From contig CAMASZ010000004.1 in NCBI GenBank assembly GCA_945861125.1, positions 1 through 20,805 on the forward strand: DNA of 20,805 nt, read 5' to 3'. Below, one piece after another: positions 1 to 20,805 of the stretch. The DNA is from Rickettsia typhi (lineage in GTDB: Bacteria > Pseudomonadota > Alphaproteobacteria > Rickettsiales > UBA1997). The position numbers were made by a program, and so were the translations under genes. Below the pieces are notes generated by a model that saw nothing but the letters and a program-made list of their open reading frames with translations, made no database searches and was not told the DNA's origin. Each line of letters begins with the position of its first letter. The stretch's first letter is position 1.

Positions 1-164
1 TCACGAATTGAAGAAATATCTGCAGATCTAGTTATAGATTGTGCTGAGGCTAATCTCATTTGTGCAACTAATCTTGAGCTTTGCGTAACTCCGGCAACTA
101 AAATGCCAATAATCAAAATTACTATTGATAACTCAATTAAAGAGAAGGCAAGTTTTTTATTCAT
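1..164 (-). CDS. prepilin-like protein, N-terminal part (runs off left edge)
   Basis: The visible 54 codons begin with a short basic stretch (MNKKLA), then FSLIELSIVILIIGILVAGV, the signature of type IV prepilins and type II secretion pseudopilins. It has Phe at +1, Glu at +5 and one hydrophobic helix. The residue before the cleavage site is Ala, not the usual Gly. The N-terminus is almost the same as that of the complete gene at 13905-14759, including the following TQSSRLV.QMRL stretch, so that gene shows what the missing part may look like (a LamG-like lectin fold). The start codon overlaps the 3' end of virB9 by 8 bp (157-164), which implies co-transcription and perhaps translational coupling. 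Product and C-terminal domain cannot be decided because the gene is cut by the window edge. Confidence 0.8.
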   Translation of the reverse strand, partial: MNKKLAFSLIELSIVILIIGILVAGVTQSSRLVAQMRLASAQSITRSADISSIR

Positions 165-1023
165 AATTTTTAAATAATTTTATCATTTTGTTGTTATAAA
201 TACATAATAGTGAATTTCCTAGTCTTAATGTAAATTGTCTAGCAGTTGTTGGAACTACAATATATTTATCTCGAACTGTGTAGTTAACCGGACTCTCTAT
301 ACCATTAGAATCAACAATATTTATATTAGGAACTGTAGAGTTATTATTGCTGAACTGGAAATGGGTTTCATTGCCATCGTCATAGACTTTAAGAGGGGTT
401 ATGTCATCAGACTTGCCAGCAAGACTATAATCGAAGTTTAGCTTAAGATCTTCGGGATTTCTATCAATTATACCCGGCAACTCTTCATCAACTCTTGCTT
501 TTGGCGTTGGTGTTTTTATAACCGCAACGTTGGTAGGTAGAGCACTCGGCAATGTTTTTTTGGCAGATGGTATCTTTGCGGCTATATTGGGAACTGATAA
601 TTGAGGAGGTATTGGTAATGGTTGCCCAACTTGTGGATAAAAAAATCTGACGGTATAAACTAAATCTTCATCAGCCTTACCGGTAAATTCATCTGATCTG
701 ATGTCAAAATGGTAAGTTCTTTTGTTGGTGATGATGGTCATGTTAGTATGGGCCGCTACTTCCAGAGGTCTGATAAAAATTCTTTTGCCAGATGGAGTTA
801 ATCGCCATGCAAAAGCTTCTCCTATTGAGATCATTTCAATTTCTTCATCATCAGAAAATTCAATGAAAGATTGATAGTTGTAATAAAATTTTAATTCATA
901 AACCTCGTTTGGATTATATACCAAAGTTCTAATTCTAGAATCGGTGGTTATTGGGGTTTGTGCAAGCGCAGATCCGCTAATAACAAATAGAAGTATAATT
1001 ATTTTAAATATAAACCGAATCAT
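157..1023 (-). CDS. virB9: type IV secretion system protein VirB9
   Basis: VirB9 is the periplasmic/outer-membrane component of the VirB7-VirB9-VirB10 core complex. This 288-residue protein starts with a signal peptide (about residues 1-21, ending SALA before QT). Its N-terminal domain carries family-typical stretches: RIRTLVYNPNEVYEL, EFSDDEEIE, AFAWRLTPSGKRIFIRPLE and HTNMTIITNKRTYHFD. A proline-rich linker lies at about residues 130-180. The C-terminal beta domain (about 190-288) includes YDDGNETHFQF, NYTVRDKYIVVPTTARQFTL and RLGN. The length is normal for the family, so it looks intact. It lies 23 bp downstream of virB8, and virB10, virB11 and virD4 do not follow; a prepilin gene follows instead. 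This is consistent with the scattered T4SS islets known in Rickettsiales (rvh system). Confidence 0.93.
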   Translation of the reverse strand: MIRFIFKIIILLFVISGSALAQTPITTDSRIRTLVYNPNEVYELKFYYNYQSFIEFSDDEEIEMISIGEAFAWRLTPSGKRIFIRPLEVAAHTNMTIITNKRTYHFDIRSDEFTGKADEDLVYTVRFFYPQVGQPLPIPPQLSVPNIAAKIPSAKKTLPSALPTNVAVIKTPTPKARVDEELPGIIDRNPEDLKLNFDYSLAGKSDDITPLKVYDDGNETHFQFSNNNSTVPNINIVDSNGIESPVNYTVRDKYIVVPTTARQFTLRLGNSLLCIYNNKMIKLFKNYE

Positions 1024-1046: not shown

Positions 1047-1700
1047 TTAATAACTAAATATCTCTTCAGTAACAGTGTATTTATTGACCTGAAAACCAAG
1101 AGGATTGATCATTCTTTCTTCCATTGAAAGTTGTATTTCAGGAGTAAAAAAGAATGAAATTGTTGCTACTTCATCTTTTGATATAATTTGAGTAGATTTG
1201 TCGCTGGTAATTTGTCTGTTAATTCTTATTAAAGCATTGTTAGAGTCCTGAAATTGTACAGACTTAACCCTAACATTTATTTTTGAATCAGCTCCCAATT
1301 CTCTGGGATTAATTCTTGTTTTAAATTCATTGTAAACCGCAGGAAGTGAGAACAATCTTACTTCTTCAGCATCTTGTTTGTATGTTTTTGGGTCATAACC
1401 ACTGGCAGATCTTATGTATTTATTAACAAAATATTTTCGCATCACTTGATCTCCTGTAAAATTTTCAGAAGAAAGTTGTTTTACAACTGTAGCAATGCCG
1501 GTTTTTTCTTCAATTTCAACCACATATGGCTCAAGAGATTTTGAAGACATTATTGATTTTACAAAAATTACCGAAATAGCAACAGAAAACATTGATATAA
1601 TTGTAAAAAGCAACAAAATGTTTCGTTGTACTACAACTATTTGGTAACGATTAGTATACCAGCTTTTTATTTTTGTTTTATCTTTTGAATCTTCACCCAT
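1047..1700 (-). CDS. virB8: type IV secretion system inner-membrane protein VirB8
   Basis: VirB8 is a bitopic inner-membrane assembly factor of the T4SS. The 217-residue product has a short cytoplasmic N-terminus with the common KSWYTNRYQ.VVVQRN start, one membrane helix at about residues 26-49, and an NTF2-like periplasmic domain. Typical stretches include LEPYVVEIEEKTGIATVV, YVVN/FVNKYIRSASGYDP-like sequence at 90-104, and a C-terminal NPLGFQVNKYTVTEE. The length fits the family. It is the first gene of a minus-strand unit with virB9 23 bp downstream. The upstream 321-bp gap separates it from divergent rodA, so its promoter must be there. VirB8 and VirB9 are expected to act in the same envelope complex. 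Confidence 0.92.
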   Translation of the reverse strand: MGEDSKDKTKIKSWYTNRYQIVVVQRNILLLFTIISMFSVAISVIFVKSIMSSKSLEPYVVEIEEKTGIATVVKQLSSENFTGDQVMRKYFVNKYIRSASGYDPKTYKQDAEEVRLFSLPAVYNEFKTRINPRELGADSKINVRVKSVQFQDSNNALIRINRQITSDKSTQIISKDEVATISFFFTPEIQLSMEERMINPLGFQVNKYTVTEEIFSY

Positions 1701-9145: not shown

Positions 9146-9949
9146 ATGAAAAAAATAATAATTTTATTTCTTATCAGTCATTTTGCAGTAAATGCCTATG
9201 CTCAAGATTCTGTAATTAACTCACCAGACGAAGGGCGATCAATGGAAAAAAGGCGCGAAGAAATCGGAGGTGATTGGCGAAACAGAAGTAACAATCCCAA
9301 TAACCAAGAAAACAGAAATAAAGAGCAATTTAAAAAGGATTGGCAAAATAAATATCAAAATGCTTCGCCAGAAGAAAAACAAACAATGGAAAGAAGGCGT
9401 GAAGAAATCAATGGTGCTAACAGCGGAAGTGTTCCAAATCAAAATCCTTCAGCAAATCCTCCAGCTAGACCTAATTTTATGGAAAATATATCTCCTGAAA
9501 AAAAGGAATTAGTAAAAAAAGAGTTAGAGCGTCATCGTCAGGCCATGAAGAATATTGCTGGTATAGATATTTTGTTTGCAGATGAAGAGAAAAATTTGTC
9601 GCCAGATGTAAAAAAACAAAGATCAGAAAAAAATCGCCAAATAATGGATGGACTCTCTAATGAAAAAAAGCTTCAGGTTAAGCAAGAATTTGATCTTCAT
9701 CGTCAAACAATGAAAAACATCACTGGAATTGATATGCCTATTATGGGTGGCGATAAAAGATTTGATAATGACGCCAAGCAGAATTGCAAAATGCAAGAAG
9801 TTTCAAAAGAAGAAATGGAAAAGCATCGGAAAATAATGGAAAGTTTATCTGCCGATAAAAAAGCTTTGGTAAAAAAGGAAATGGAGCGTCATCGTCAAGA
9901 AATGAAAAATATTACGGGCGTTGAGTTGCCAATGCCGAAATGTCAATGA
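9146..9949 (+). CDS. secreted Lys/Glu-rich helical repeat protein (267 aa)
   Basis: Function unknown. Residues 1-19 are a clear signal peptide (MKKIIILFLISHFAVNAYA, then QD), so the mature protein is exported. The N-terminal half (20-110) is Asn/Arg/Glu rich with two copies of an M(E)RRREEI motif (33-40 and 81-88). The rest has three copies of one unit, 'S..KK.LVKKE.ERHRQ.MKNI.GI', at about 116-140, 171-195 and 235-259. Each is preceded by a charged helix, the later ones containing (K/N)(H)R.IM. Two mature Cys, C214 and C266, could form a disulfide. It is the first of three paralogous genes on this strand. The LS/LT-xx-(Q/K) helix starts recall Spy/CpxP-type LTxxQ periplasmic proteins, but this is only a resemblance. 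Nucleotide identity with the next gene suggests recent duplication. Confidence 0.85.
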   Translation: MKKIIILFLISHFAVNAYAQDSVINSPDEGRSMEKRREEIGGDWRNRSNNPNNQENRNKEQFKKDWQNKYQNASPEEKQTMERRREEINGANSGSVPNQNPSANPPARPNFMENISPEKKELVKKELERHRQAMKNIAGIDILFADEEKNLSPDVKKQRSEKNRQIMDGLSNEKKLQVKQEFDLHRQTMKNITGIDMPIMGGDKRFDNDAKQNCKMQEVSKEEMEKHRKIMESLSADKKALVKKEMERHRQEMKNITGVELPMPKCQ

Positions 9950-10040: not shown

Positions 10041-10385
10041 ATGAAAAAACTTATCACATGCGCTTTTTTAATGGCTCTTTATTCTAATTATTCTATGGCA
10101 GAAAATGTTGCTGGTAGTCCTTCGCAAGATTACAACTTAAAAAATAAAGAAGGTAAGCAAATGCTTACACCGGAAGAGTATGAAAAAAAATATCAAAAAA
10201 AGAAAGAGAGAGATGAAAGATACAACAATGCTTCTCCAGAAGAAAAAGCCAGAATGGATAAACATCATCAAATTATGGAAAAGTTAACTCCGGAGCAAAA
10301 AGAATTGGTTAAAAAAGAAAGAGAGCGTCATCGTCAAGAAATGAAAAAAATCACTGGTGTTGATATTTGGCAAGAAAAGCAGTAA
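10041..10385 (+). CDS. secreted Lys/Glu-rich helical repeat protein (114 aa), paralog
   Basis: Function unknown. A short form of the preceding gene: signal peptide 1-20 (MKKLITCAFLMALYSNYSMA, then EN), a charged linker with LTPEEYEKKYQKKKERDERY (42-61), then one full two-helix unit. The first helix is NASPEEKARMDKHHQIMEKL (63-82) and the second TPEQKELVKKERERHRQEMK (83-102), followed by KITGVD. The unit matches the last unit of the 267-residue protein almost residue for residue, and a stretch of about 26 bp covering ERHRQEMK is identical in DNA. The only Cys (C7) is in the signal peptide. It lies 91 bp downstream of its paralog, and 10386-10452 after it is plain AT-rich DNA. It is probably periplasmic or secreted, predicted almost wholly helical. 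Confidence 0.85.
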   Translation: MKKLITCAFLMALYSNYSMAENVAGSPSQDYNLKNKEGKQMLTPEEYEKKYQKKKERDERYNNASPEEKARMDKHHQIMEKLTPEQKELVKKERERHRQEMKKITGVDIWQEKQ

Positions 10386-10813: not shown

Positions 10814-11227
10814 ATGAAACTAATTTTAGAAAAAGCTTTTTTAAATCATTGTTTAGGAAAATTAAAATTTCCTAATTTGTTGTTGATATTGTTGTTTCTT
10901 TCTAATGCCGTACAAGCTCAAGACACAAGAAGCGCTGTGGCTAATGCAAATTCTAAAGCTGTAGAAAAAAAGCAAGCGAATCCAAAACCGATTTCTCCAC
11001 AACAAGTTGAGAAAAATCTTGAATCAAAATTTGATTGCGAAGAGTTTAAGAATTTCCAAAAGGAACAAAAGAATAGAGCGCAAAAAGTTCAGCAGATTTT
11101 TCAAAATCTTTCGCCGCAACAAAGAAAACTTATTGAGGCTGAGAATCTTCGCCATGAAGCTGAGATTAATAAAATTATGGGTATCAAAAGTAAAAAAATT
11201 GGTCAAAATGATGTTAAGTCTAGATAG
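10814..11227 (+). CDS. secreted helical protein, divergent paralog (137 aa)
   Basis: Function unknown. The N-terminus is long for a signal peptide: a charged stretch (1-20), then a hydrophobic core NLLLILLFLSNAVQA (21-35) with a cleavage-like AVQA/QD junction. The mature part is Gln/Lys/Asn rich. Its last third, IFQNLSPQQRKLIEAENLRHEAEINKIMGI (95-124), keeps the spacing of the unit in the two upstream genes (LS/LT-P-x-Q-x-K-x-x, then RH, then I-x-x-I-G), although identity is low. One mature Cys (C75). It lies downstream of repeat element B and upstream of element C. No Shine-Dalgarno sequence is visible before the ATG. It is probably an older member of the same secreted family; a lipoprotein or unrelated helical protein is possible. 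Confidence 0.75.
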   Translation: MKLILEKAFLNHCLGKLKFPNLLLILLFLSNAVQAQDTRSAVANANSKAVEKKQANPKPISPQQVEKNLESKFDCEEFKNFQKEQKNRAQKVQQIFQNLSPQQRKLIEAENLRHEAEINKIMGIKSKKIGQNDVKSR

Positions 11228-13904: not shown

Positions 13905-14759
13905 TTAAGAAACTTTAATGCTCCATTTTTTGCCAAGATATTGCTCAATAGATTTTCTTTCTTCAGTTTTTAATGCTCGATCAAAAATAATAATTTCACC
14001 TATTTGTCCGTTCATATATTCGGTACTGTAAGTTACGCCTATAGTGTTATTTATGGCAGTGCTGGCACGATTGGATGAGGCAACACTTCCTTTGGAAACC
14101 CCATCAACAAAGCCCTCTCTAGTTGATAGATTATAGGTGAAGCTAAAAATCTGCATTTTTTTAACAACGGTTGCTCCATTAATAACAAGATCAACGAACC
14201 ACCAATAATTATTAAATACTCCGCCGGTAGGATCGTATCTAAAAGAGTTGGTTTGATTGTTTCCGCCATAGGTTCCAGACCCCATAACGCCACATTGACA
14301 AAATGCTTCAGTGCGAGCAACAAAAAATATAGTATAGGGTGAGTTATTAAATGGAATTGTTCCATCGGGCATGTTAAAGAAATCTTGGTTAATAAATTTT
14401 ACAACTGGTAAACCAGTTTGTTCATCAAATCCATATTGTGGTTTGTTGGCATCAACTGTTTGATAGGCATCATCTTTTACCGAAGATTGAATATTTAAAT
14501 CAAACCAATTGCGCAGTAGTGCTTGATTATCAGCTTCTCCTTCTAAAAAACTTTTTTCTGATGTTGATTCATACCAAGCTACTAAATCTTTTATAGAATT
14601 TACTGGAGATGAAGTTGTTATTGATCTTGCAGTTGAAAGCCTCATTTGTCTGACTAGTCTTGAGCTTTGAGTTACTCCAGCTACAAGAATTCCGATGATT
14701 AAAATTACTATTGATAATTCAATTAATGAAAAAGCAAGTTTATGATGATTTTTTTTCAT
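13905..14759 (-). CDS. prepilin-type protein with C-terminal LamG/concanavalin-like domain
   Basis: A 284-residue exported protein with a type III (prepilin) signal: MKKNHHKLA, then FSLIELSIVILIIGILVAGV with Glu at +5 and Ala, not Gly, at -1. The pilin-like helix (10-45) is followed by a LamG/concanavalin-type beta domain (about 55-284). Landmarks of the latter are DLVAWYES at its start, PVVKFINQDFFNMP, YTIFFVARTEAF, SFTYNLSTREGFVDG, and the closing IGEIIIFDRALKTEERKSIEQYLGKKW typical of such domains. A CQC motif (155-157) could bind metal or form a disulfide. It is the last gene of a tight operon after dsbA-like and mlaF, 7 bp downstream of the latter. A paralog starts at 164 on the minus strand. 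No pilus assembly genes are in the window, so it may be a type II secretion minor pseudopilin or a surface lectin; the exact role is unknown. Confidence 0.85.
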   Translation of the reverse strand: MKKNHHKLAFSLIELSIVILIIGILVAGVTQSSRLVRQMRLSTARSITTSSPVNSIKDLVAWYESTSEKSFLEGEADNQALLRNWFDLNIQSSVKDDAYQTVDANKPQYGFDEQTGLPVVKFINQDFFNMPDGTIPFNNSPYTIFFVARTEAFCQCGVMGSGTYGGNNQTNSFRYDPTGGVFNNYWWFVDLVINGATVVKKMQIFSFTYNLSTREGFVDGVSKGSVASSNRASTAINNTIGVTYSTEYMNGQIGEIIIFDRALKTEERKSIEQYLGKKWSIKVS

Positions 14760-17509: not shown

Positions 17510-18925
17510 ATGATTTTTATTAGTTTTGGCTTATTTATGCTATCTTTTATATTTATTGGATTGCTTTCAACAATAAAAAGCAAACGCACCAGCGAAGATT
17601 ATCTTTTGGCAAGCTATTCTGAAAAGCCGTGGTTAATTGCATTGTCAGCAGTTGCAACCAATAATAGTGGCTATATGTTTATTGGTGTTATTGGTTACAC
17701 TTATGTTAATGGCATATCTTCTTTATGGATTTTATTATGTATAATAATTGGCGATTTATGTGCTTCCTTTTTTGTTTATAAAAATTTGAGAATTGTTTCT
17801 CAAAAAGCTAAGGCTCTTAGTTTTCCTGAAGCACTAAGCAAATGGAGCGGTGAAGAGTATAAAATTATTAGAATTTTATCGGCAGTAATTTTGATATTAT
17901 TTTTAAGTGTCTATGCGGCAGCTCAACTTAGAGCTGGAGGCAAGGCTTTACATGTTTTATTTGGTTGGAATAATTTGATTGGTTCGTTAATTGGAACAAT
18001 TATTGTTATTGCTTATTGCGCTTCTGGAGGAATTAGGGCTTCAATATGGACTAATACAGCTCAATCTTTTGTAATGATTTTTTCGATGGCAGTATTGTTC
18101 TATATGGCAATTAATAAGATTGGCGGTTTTGCAGATTTTATAAATAATTTAAAAACTATTTCTCCAAATTATTTTAGTATTTATCCAGTCAATCAAATTG
18201 ATAATAAAAATCTTGGCTTAGCGTGTTTTTTATTTGGTTGGTTTTTCGGGGGTTTTGGAATTATTGGTCAACCTCACATTATGACTAGCTTTATGGCTAT
18301 GAATAAGCCAGAAAGTATTAATAAAATTCGTATTTATTATTACAGCTGGTATATAGTTTTTTTTCTTTTAACCATAGGAGTTGGTTTGGCTTCAAGAATT
18401 TTGCTTCCTTATTATCAAGGTTTTGATCCAGAGCTAGCGTTACCAACCTTATCACAAAATATTTTACCCGAAATATTAGTAGGATTTGTTTTGGCGGGAT
18501 TATTTTCGGCAACCATGTCAACTGCTGATTCGCAAATTATATGTTGTGCTGGAGCCATAACCAATGATTTAATGCCATCAAAAAGAAATAACTATATGGT
18601 AGCTAAAAAATCAACTATTGTGGTTGCTATTTTTGCAATGATAATTTCGGTGGTTGATAGTCAAAGCGTTTTCTCGCTAGTAATGTTAGGTTGGCTAGCT
18701 TTAGCCTGCTCTTATTCACCATTGATAATCATTTATTGTTTTGGTGGCAAAATGTCAGAAAAATTGGCTCTAATTTCGATGATTACTGGATTTTCATCAA
18801 TGATGATCTGGAGATATTTAGGTTTGGGTGCAATTATTTATGAGGCTGCTCCGGGAATTATCTTTGGATTAATGCCTTATATTGTTTCCAAAATTAAATG
18901 TCATATTTTAGCCAAAAATCTCTAA
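17510..18925 (+). CDS. PutP-like sodium:solute symporter
   Basis: A member of the solute:sodium symporter family most like the proline transporter PutP. The 471-residue polytopic protein has the transmembrane segments and family stretches expected: PWLIALSAVATNNSGYMFIG (40-59), a GWFFGGFGIIGQPHIMTSFMAM stretch (243-264), LFSATMSTADSQ (331-342) and YEAAPGIIFG near the C-terminus. The Na2-site residues of PutP (A337, S340, T341) are kept as A334, S337, T338. The position of essential Asp55 in E. coli PutP is Asn here (N51 in ATNNSG), while Ser57 is kept (S53). The coupling ion or substrate may therefore differ. It is preceded by a 19-bp palindrome and followed by a remnant repeat. Probable role: uptake of host proline or a related compound. 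Confidence 0.85.
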   Translation: MIFISFGLFMLSFIFIGLLSTIKSKRTSEDYLLASYSEKPWLIALSAVATNNSGYMFIGVIGYTYVNGISSLWILLCIIIGDLCASFFVYKNLRIVSQKAKALSFPEALSKWSGEEYKIIRILSAVILILFLSVYAAAQLRAGGKALHVLFGWNNLIGSLIGTIIVIAYCASGGIRASIWTNTAQSFVMIFSMAVLFYMAINKIGGFADFINNLKTISPNYFSIYPVNQIDNKNLGLACFLFGWFFGGFGIIGQPHIMTSFMAMNKPESINKIRIYYYSWYIVFFLLTIGVGLASRILLPYYQGFDPELALPTLSQNILPEILVGFVLAGLFSATMSTADSQIICCAGAITNDLMPSKRNNYMVAKKSTIVVAIFAMIISVVDSQSVFSLVMLGWLALACSYSPLIIIYCFGGKMSEKLALISMITGFSSMMIWRYLGLGAIIYEAAPGIIFGLMPYIVSKIKCHILAKNL

Positions 18926-18976: not shown

Positions 18977-20805
18977 CTAACTAACTATGCATCGAGAATT
19001 TGTAATACTTAGTCTTGCTTCAGATAAAGCTGTTCCTGGTCTTTGATGCAAAGATTCGGTAAATTCTGAAAGGATTAAATTTTCTAAGTTTTCTGATTCT
19101 AAAGAATTTTGACAGATGTTTAATATTCTAATAACATCTTGTCGGGCGCAATTTTCTGAAAATTCTTCATCTGAATTACTTGAATTCATTTTGATAGTTG
19201 TAATTTGAGTAGAAATTTCTTCAGCCAAGGTTATCAATTCTGATGGAGTTTTTTTTATAATTGCGCTTAGATTACTGGGACTAATAGTAAGATCATAAAA
19301 ATCTTTTAAATTAGTATGAAATTGAAAATTATCAACCTCAACAGCTTCAATTATTTGCTCTTTAGAAAGGGTGCAAAATTTTTCTGTTGTATCTATGTAT
19401 GAATAAAATTTTAAAAGTACCAACCCATTGATGAGTTCTTTTTTTAACTCTTTTTGATATAAAGAAATTCTACTAGTTTCTGTTAAATCAGAAACTAATT
19501 CAGGTTGAGTATTGGTGAGTGATTGATGTCGCGTTATTGACTCTTGAACATGTTGCATAAAATTAGTTTTTTCTTGAAAAAGTTTTAATTTATCATTTTT
19601 TACTTCAATATTTTCTGAATCAGAGAAAAATTTTAACATCTTTACAATTCCTTCATGTCCATTTTGAGATGCTATCATAAGAGGGGTTGCACCATCTTCC
19701 ATAGCTTTATTAACATCTGCTTTTCCTGCAATTAAGGCTTTGATTGCTTCAGCATGTCCATTTTTAGTAGCAATATAAACGGGGGTTGCACCATTATTTC
19801 TAGCTTTATTAACATCTGCTCCTCCTGCAATTAAGGCTTTGATTGCTTCAGCATGTCCATTTTGAGATGCTATCATAAGAGGGGTTGCACCTTGACTATC
19901 AACTAAATTAACATCTGCTTTTCCCTCAATTAACGCTATGATTGCTTCAGCATGTCCAATTTGAGATGCTATCATAAGAGGGGTTGCACCATTATTTCTA
20001 GCTTTATTAACATCTGCTCCTTTTTCAATTAACGCTTTGATTGCTTCAGCATGTCCATTTTGAGCAGCAATATAAACGGGGGTTGCACCATCTTCCATAG
20101 CTTTATTAACATCTGCTCCTCCTGCAATTAAGGCTATGATTGCTTCAGCTTGACCATTTTGAGCAGCAATAAAAACAGGGGTTGTACCATCTTTCATAGC
20201 TTTATTAACATCTGCTTTTCCTGCAATTAAGGCTTTGATTGCTTCGGTATGTCCCTCTTGAGCAGCAATATAAACAGTGGTTGCACCATCTTCCATAGCT
20301 TTATTAACATCTGCTCCTCCTGCAATTAACGCTATGATTGCTTCAGCATGTCCAATTTGAGATGCTATCATAAGAGGGGTTGCACCTTGACTATCAACTA
20401 AATTAACATCTGCTTTTCCCTCAATTAACGCTATGATTGCTTCAGCATGTCCATTTTGAGTAGCAATATAAACGGGGGTTGCACCATCTTCCATAGCTTT
20501 ATTAACATCTGCTCCTCCTGCAATTAAGGCTTTGATTGCTTCAGCTTGACCATTTTGAGCAGCAATATAAACAGGGGTTGCACCATTTTCCATAGCTTTA
20601 TTAACATCTGCTCCTCCTGCAATTAACGCTATGATTGCTTCAGCATGTCCATTTTGAGAAGCTATCATAAGAGGGGTTTTACCATTTTCCATAGCTTTAT
20701 TAACATCTGCTCCTCCTGCAATTAAGGCTTTGATTGCTTCAGCATGTCCATTTTGAGCAGCAATAAAAACAGGGGTTACACCATTATTTTTAGCTTTATC
20801 AACAT
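18977..20805 (-). CDS. ankyrin-repeat protein, C-terminal part (start beyond right edge), with C-terminal CIVS
   Basis: The frame is open through the right edge, so the Met at 20692 is not the real start; the part seen has 608 complete codons. It holds at least twelve 33-residue ankyrin repeats, consensus 'NGATP.(Y/M)IA.QNGHAEAI.ALI.G.ADVNKA', from the edge to about 19640. A non-repeat region of about 210 residues follows, Glu/Ser/Leu rich and probably helical, for which I recognise no domain. The last four residues are C-I-V-S, a fit to the eukaryotic CaaX box (X = Ser favours farnesylation). No signal peptide can be judged because the N-terminus is missing. Ankyrin proteins of Rickettsiales are often T4SS or T1SS effectors acting in host cells, and VirB8/VirB9 lie in the same window. 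Repeats are almost identical in DNA, which shows recent duplication or conversion. Confidence 0.92.
   Translation of the reverse strand, partial: VDKAKNNGVTPVFIAAQNGHAEAIKALIAGGADVNKAMENGKTPLMIASQNGHAEAIIALIAGGADVNKAMENGATPVYIAAQNGQAEAIKALIAGGADVNKAMEDGATPVYIATQNGHAEAIIALIEGKADVNLVDSQGATPLMIASQIGHAEAIIALIAGGADVNKAMEDGATTVYIAAQEGHTEAIKALIAGKADVNKAMKDGTTPVFIAAQNGQAEAIIALIAGGADVNKAMEDGATPVYIAAQNGHAEAIKALIEKGADVNKARNNGATPLMIASQIGHAEAIIALIEGKADVNLVDSQGATPLMIASQNGHAEAIKALIAGGADVNKARNNGATPVYIATKNGHAEAIKALIAGKADVNKAMEDGATPLMIASQNGHEGIVKMLKFFSDSENIEVKNDKLKLFQEKTNFMQHVQESITRHQSLTNTQPELVSDLTETSRISLYQKELKKELINGLVLLKFYSYIDTTEKFCTLSKEQIIEAVEVDNFQFHTNLKDFYDLTISPSNLSAIIKKTPSELITLAEEISTQITTIKMNSSNSDEEFSENCARQDVIRILNICQNSLESENLENLILSEFTESLHQRPGTALSEARLSITNSRCIVS

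Follow-up and report, generated by a model that had tools for sequence, protein, structure and literature searches.

The host-prenylated ankyrin effector is a kind of protein already known from Legionella. According to PMC5506055, the Dot/Icm system of Legionella pneumophila delivers AnkB, an F-box protein for which three ankyrin repeats are mentioned; the host farnesylates its Cys at position -4, and AnkB needs this residue to function. The Pel or CMP prenylated effectors of Legionella are also T4SS effectors with a C-terminal CaaX; the available portion of PMC13081727 shows Cys-dependent localisation for them and counts, in Legionella AA100/130b, seven Pel effectors with CaaX among about 368 injected effectors (~2%). 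The consensus of farnesyltransferase, as given in excerpts of PMC11152559, is a CaaX in which a2 is aliphatic and X is Ser, and in humanized yeast all viral CaaX tails evaluated there, including CVVS and CLLS, were modified by the human enzyme; the paper makes no mention of CIVS itself. Among the Rickettsiales, RARP-1 and RARP-2 (PMC9352585 and PMC11077975, in their excerpted text) and the Orientia Anks (from paper listings) are ankyrin proteins of host-associated bacteria with a T4SS; the words "CaaX" and "prenyl" are absent from PMC11077975, and "CaaX" is absent from PMC9352585. Among the literature matches listed, none describes, in its listing or excerpts, a Rickettsiales effector that is prenylated. 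Wolbachia titre has been linked to host CAAX-processing genes, and their exploitation by ankyrin proteins is called unknown in the passages at hand (PMC5645465); an added CAAX tag was used in PMC10047532, also represented by excerpts. Two papers pairing CIVS with farnesyl were judged irrelevant from their excerpts.

The window, by which we mean the whole stretch of 20,805 nucleotides analysed here, contains an ankyrin protein with such a C-terminus together with T4SS genes (Table 1). Judging from sequence comparison, it belongs to an uncultured Rickettsiales clade with a VirB/D4-type T4SS. An enolase scan returned 80 loci (best 72% identity), the top ones from uncultured MAGs, many of them titled Rickettsiales or Alphaproteobacteria, whose isolate names seem to denote lake or other water samples. 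Five MAG contigs with an enolase 64-72% identical to that of the window (L003, L005, L009, L026 and L034) are titled 'Rickettsia typhi'. Rickettsia is not known to have an enolase, and these titles are presumably mislabels. The order Eno-DAAT-pilin-MlaF-DsbA-GT2 was complete in 5 of the 36 loci examined (L009, L012, L017, L019 and L022), and parts of it occurred in others. The presence of a T4SS islet in the window, noted when the DNA was first read, was borne out by VirB8 and VirB9. All 13 sister genomes likewise contain VirB9-type genes, with two copies in 12 of the 13, and a VirD4-type coupling protein was found in 13/13. Together, the T4SS genes of the window and of its sister genomes make delivery of the ankyrin protein into a eukaryotic host plausible. 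The clade may, by analogy, have an intracellular habit or a Deianiraea-like life attached to its host; the latter is reported for Deianiraea and suspected for Gamibacteraceae (PMC9352585, in part). An ATP/ADP translocase (PF03219) had no match in the 13 sister genomes, with the control genomes silent too.

Table 1. Positions, strands and supporting matches of the features discussed, numbered from the first nucleotide of the window.
Feature	Positions	Strand	Remarks
VirB9-type T4SS gene (CagX family)	157-1023	-	PF03524, 3.2e-53
VirB8-type T4SS gene	1047-1700	-	PF04335, 8.3e-39
Sodium:solute symporter, convergent neighbour	17510-18925	+	PF00474, 1.9e-54; 51 bp between its end and the stop of the ankyrin ORF
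Ankyrin-repeat ORF, 608 residues seen	18977-20803	-	Runs off the window at its 5' end; stop codon TAG, 18977-18979
CaaX-like C-terminus, C605-I-V-S608	18980-18991	-	Cys codon at 18989-18991; tail identical in P0002
Non-ankyrin C-terminal region, residues 392-608 (217 residues)	18977-19630	-	No Pfam match
Ankyrin repeat array	19654-20803	-	About 11.6 similar 99-bp units; TRF period 99, 83% matches, score 1478

Two further features of the neighbourhood were recorded. Three small ORFs lie between Tgt and enolase on the forward strand (9146-9949, 10041-10385 and 10814-11227); they have a common repeated motif (LVKKE-ERHRQEMKNITG-like), starts that by eye resemble signal peptides, and no Pfam match, and several sister loci have similar stretches in the corresponding position. 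On the reverse strand, 13905-14759 encodes a type IV pilin-like protein with the prokaryotic N-terminal methylation motif and a weak LamG/concanavalin-like match below the curated cut-off, possibly a lectin-like pilin; several sister loci retain a counterpart of it between DAAT and MlaF. The symporter was matched in 8 of the 13 sister genomes, with at least 55% identity in 7 of the 8. No ankyrin match stood beside it in 10 sister loci with flanks of up to 1.5 kb.

With its ankyrin repeats and its Rickettsiales genome, the product of the ankyrin ORF is a Rickettsiales ankyrin-repeat protein. No start codon for it lies in the window, and the N-terminus and any secretion signal lie beyond. The Pfam match is to Ank_2 (9e-98), and AlphaFold2 predicted with high confidence an ankyrin superhelix of 12 helix pairs at about residues 11-390. 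The region that follows was predicted to be helical at low confidence and mostly coil past residue 586, with pLDDT below 50 for the last 69 residues (540-608); the alignment held six sequences, and low confidence may have other causes. A match of this region to Utp5 among solved structures was weak (E 0.0045) and was taken as chance.

The protein ends SITNSRCIVS-stop. In the ankyrin frame, the minus strand over 18977-19000 is AAT TCT CGA TGC ATA GTT AGT TAG (N S R C I V S stop). The first-pass annotation had reported an ankyrin protein ending in NSRCIVS at this place and a match to the farnesyltransferase consensus; the coordinates and the frame proved exact, and at the true C-terminus there is a Cys at -4, an aliphatic residue at both a1 and a2, and a last residue of the farnesyltransferase type. 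All frames past the TAG close within about 25 codons and the symporter gene then follows, so no longer C-terminus is hidden downstream. The residues before CIVS are polar and predicted to be unstructured, as expected of an accessible substrate. Inspection by eye of the residues near CIVS showed no second membrane signal (a strong polybasic stretch or a neighbouring Cys).

The protein is like AnkB in combining ankyrin repeats with a C-terminal CaaX in a bacterium with a T4SS, and AnkB had been rightly named as the precedent for an ankyrin effector with such a tail (PMC5506055, excerpted). It differs from AnkB in its long array of similar repeats, its C-terminal region without a Pfam family, its VirB/D4-type T4SS and the lack of an F-box match. 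Within the residues encoded in the window, the Pfam scan (E ≤ 0.001) gave ankyrin families only, with no F-box. Because the part seen has no F-box, we consider that, on this part, the protein is not a member of the AnkB family. The Pel and CMP effectors differ in coming from another bacterial order and in their Cys-dependent localisation (PMC13081727, in part), whereas the window protein is known by its motif.

We propose, at a probability of about 0.42, that this is a T4SS-delivered ankyrin protein whose tail is farnesylated by the host and which is held at host membranes. The VirB/D4-type T4SS would deliver it to a eukaryote, the host being likely a protist; there it would come into contact with the host cytosol, and the host farnesyltransferase would take the flexible CIVS tail as substrate. 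The last three residues would then be removed and the end carboxymethylated. Tethered to host membranes, the ankyrin superhelix would bind partners there, presumably to some benefit of the bacterium. By analogy with described substrates, the tail would probably be prenylated if it met a farnesyltransferase. That the modification is functional is a somewhat more tentative claim, which we hold at rather less than even odds. The first-pass annotation had argued that the tail makes sense only in a host; this is supported in part, by the motif, the ankyrin protein and the T4SS genes, and no sign of selection for the tail was seen.

The strongest competitor comes close to an even chance in our estimate: an ordinary ankyrin protein of the clade may have acquired CIVS by chance, perhaps by the addition of four codons to an old -NSR end, and carry no lipid anchor. 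The rarity of the motif bears on both readings. As background we used 777 distinct ORFs of at least 100 aa, read from stop to stop and some of them spurious, from the related loci L001-L032 and L081-L169 (936 kb, overlaps included). From the residue frequencies at the last 30 positions, strict motif ends (C[ILVA][ILVM][SMQACT]) are expected in 1.5e-4 of proteins, or about one in 6,500. For one given protein this makes coincidence improbable, and this protein is of a kind in which such a tail could serve a purpose; for a genome of an assumed 1400 genes it amounts to about 0.2 chance ends. The CaaX motif, four residues long, was moreover chosen post hoc, after the sequence had been read, and someone scanning many windows will come upon chance CaaX ends. 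None of the 777 related ORFs ended in the strict motif, and 15 had any Cys at -4.

Ankyrin proteins as a class gave the same picture. At E ≤ 1e-10, 55 ankyrin places were found, in 13/13 sister genomes. We read 56 distinct sister ankyrin ORFs, left out 9 that were cut by locus ends, and found a Cys at -4 in none of the 47 complete ones, which cover all 13 genomes; all 47 being without the motif favours coincidence. A wider set (P0001-P0125, 125 proteins) included the window protein, its metagenome relative P0002, the L081 protein under two identifiers and the best 120 listed of 6495 ankyrin matches. Seven of these records, some of which may be truncated, have a Cys at -4; C-aliphatic-aliphatic-X was found in P0001 and P0002 only, and P0035 ends in CNIS, a looser form of the motif. 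The motif is rare per protein, and it is no regular feature of the clade or of ankyrin proteins as a class.

The possibility of an extended -NSR end gains weight from the ends of the sister ankyrin ORFs. Ends of the form [SGQ]R occurred in 7/49 ankyrin ORFs versus 13/728 others (Fisher P = 1e-4, 777 ORFs; a post hoc comparison among related genomes). Since TNSR fits this habit, a four-codon extension (TNSR + CIVS) is a real rival. A diverged ortholog ending in -NSR was not found, though, and the extension is a guess. The [SGQ]R ends of the clade's ankyrin ORFs (L081-L137) are possibly a T4SS export feature.

Relatives of the protein say little about constraint on the tail. Of 1238 candidates in a protein search, P0002, from a JGI metagenome, alone reached E ≤ 0.001; its cluster has 5 member sequences, of which the representative was used for comparison. 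Its last 238 residues are identical to those of the window protein, the repeats differ, and both proteins are cut on the 5' side. P0002 is probably another allele, or another assembly, of the same species. Both alleles keep CIVS, a point against coincidence, though the two are identical there; because of this identity, the P0002 tail is uninformative on constraint. The number and make-up of the ankyrin repeats differ between P0002 and 19654-20803, either by rapid repeat turnover or by assembly collapse.

Diverged orthologs of the C-terminal region were sought in genome contigs, viral contigs and 262 genomes of the order, and none was confirmed. The order-wide search of the 262 genomes gave five weak places, of which only L081 was recognised as an ankyrin protein. 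The match in L083 falls within an ORF that by eye is GyrA-like, and it looks like chance, that in L085 was judged chance from its ORF list, and those in L082 and L084 contain stops. Matches in L087 and L088, which lie opposite other ORFs, and in L089, with stops inside the match, were dropped.

Four proteins, P0004-P0007 (702, 442, 626 and 653 aa, respectively), have a repeat consensus similar to that of the window protein, and the alignment showed shared segments in the C-terminal region; P0004 and the L081 protein of genome G001 are practically the same. In its C-terminal region the window protein is marginally similar to this L081 family, with an E value of 0.04 from the search of one genome, a BLASTP E of 0.12 for the window/L081 pair, a profile score of 8.5 bits that 3 of 2000 shuffles exceeded, and a hhalign probability of 36 (P 3.7e-4, 48 columns). 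We consider homology probable, if marginal, mainly because architecture and segment order are shared. P0004-P0007 run 55-60 residues past the last aligned column of the window protein, or 81-86 from a shared anchor, and end in SPSR, SPATP, FQRD and SQRE, none of them a CaaX. If they are homologous, the CaaX would have been gained in the lineage of the window or lost outside it. These four probable relatives without the motif add to the case for coincidence. Orthologs that keep the region without the Cys had been named in advance as evidence against a functional tail, and P0004-P0007, which lack the Cys motif, go some way in that direction; they do so weakly because their similarity is marginal.

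It is unlikely that the C-terminus is mainly a T4SS export signal, polar and with Arg near its end, in which CIVS is tolerated and perhaps incidentally prenylated but unneeded: a terminal R is commoner in sister ankyrin ORFs (9/49 versus 41/728 others, P = 0.003, post hoc), but for R or K anywhere among the last three residues the difference is not significant (32/49 versus 366/728, P = 0.054), four end features were tried post hoc, and the sister ORFs are not independent.

For host farnesylation of the tail, the frequency of such ends among real effectors matters. Were 0.1-0.5% of Rickettsiales effectors CaaX-ended, a rate we assume, a strict motif in one effector would more often be real than chance; but the sister sample has no such case (0/47), and delivery of the protein is itself putative. 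Missing conservation is not strong counter-evidence, because in one AnkB strain allele a frameshift removed the CaaX and a different motif was gained (PMC5506055, excerpted), which shows that such tails can turn over. The protein is a credible candidate for a host-prenylated effector, and coincidence is about as likely. Whether it is a host-farnesylated Rickettsiales effector that evolved AnkB's trick independently, in another order, with another T4SS and probably against a protist, is a possibility on which we would lean towards no.

If the proposal is true, host prenylation would be a convergent anchoring device of host-associated bacteria, used in two distant orders with different types of T4SS. 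It would also indicate where an ankyrin protein of an uncultured symbiont acts that is otherwise unreadable.
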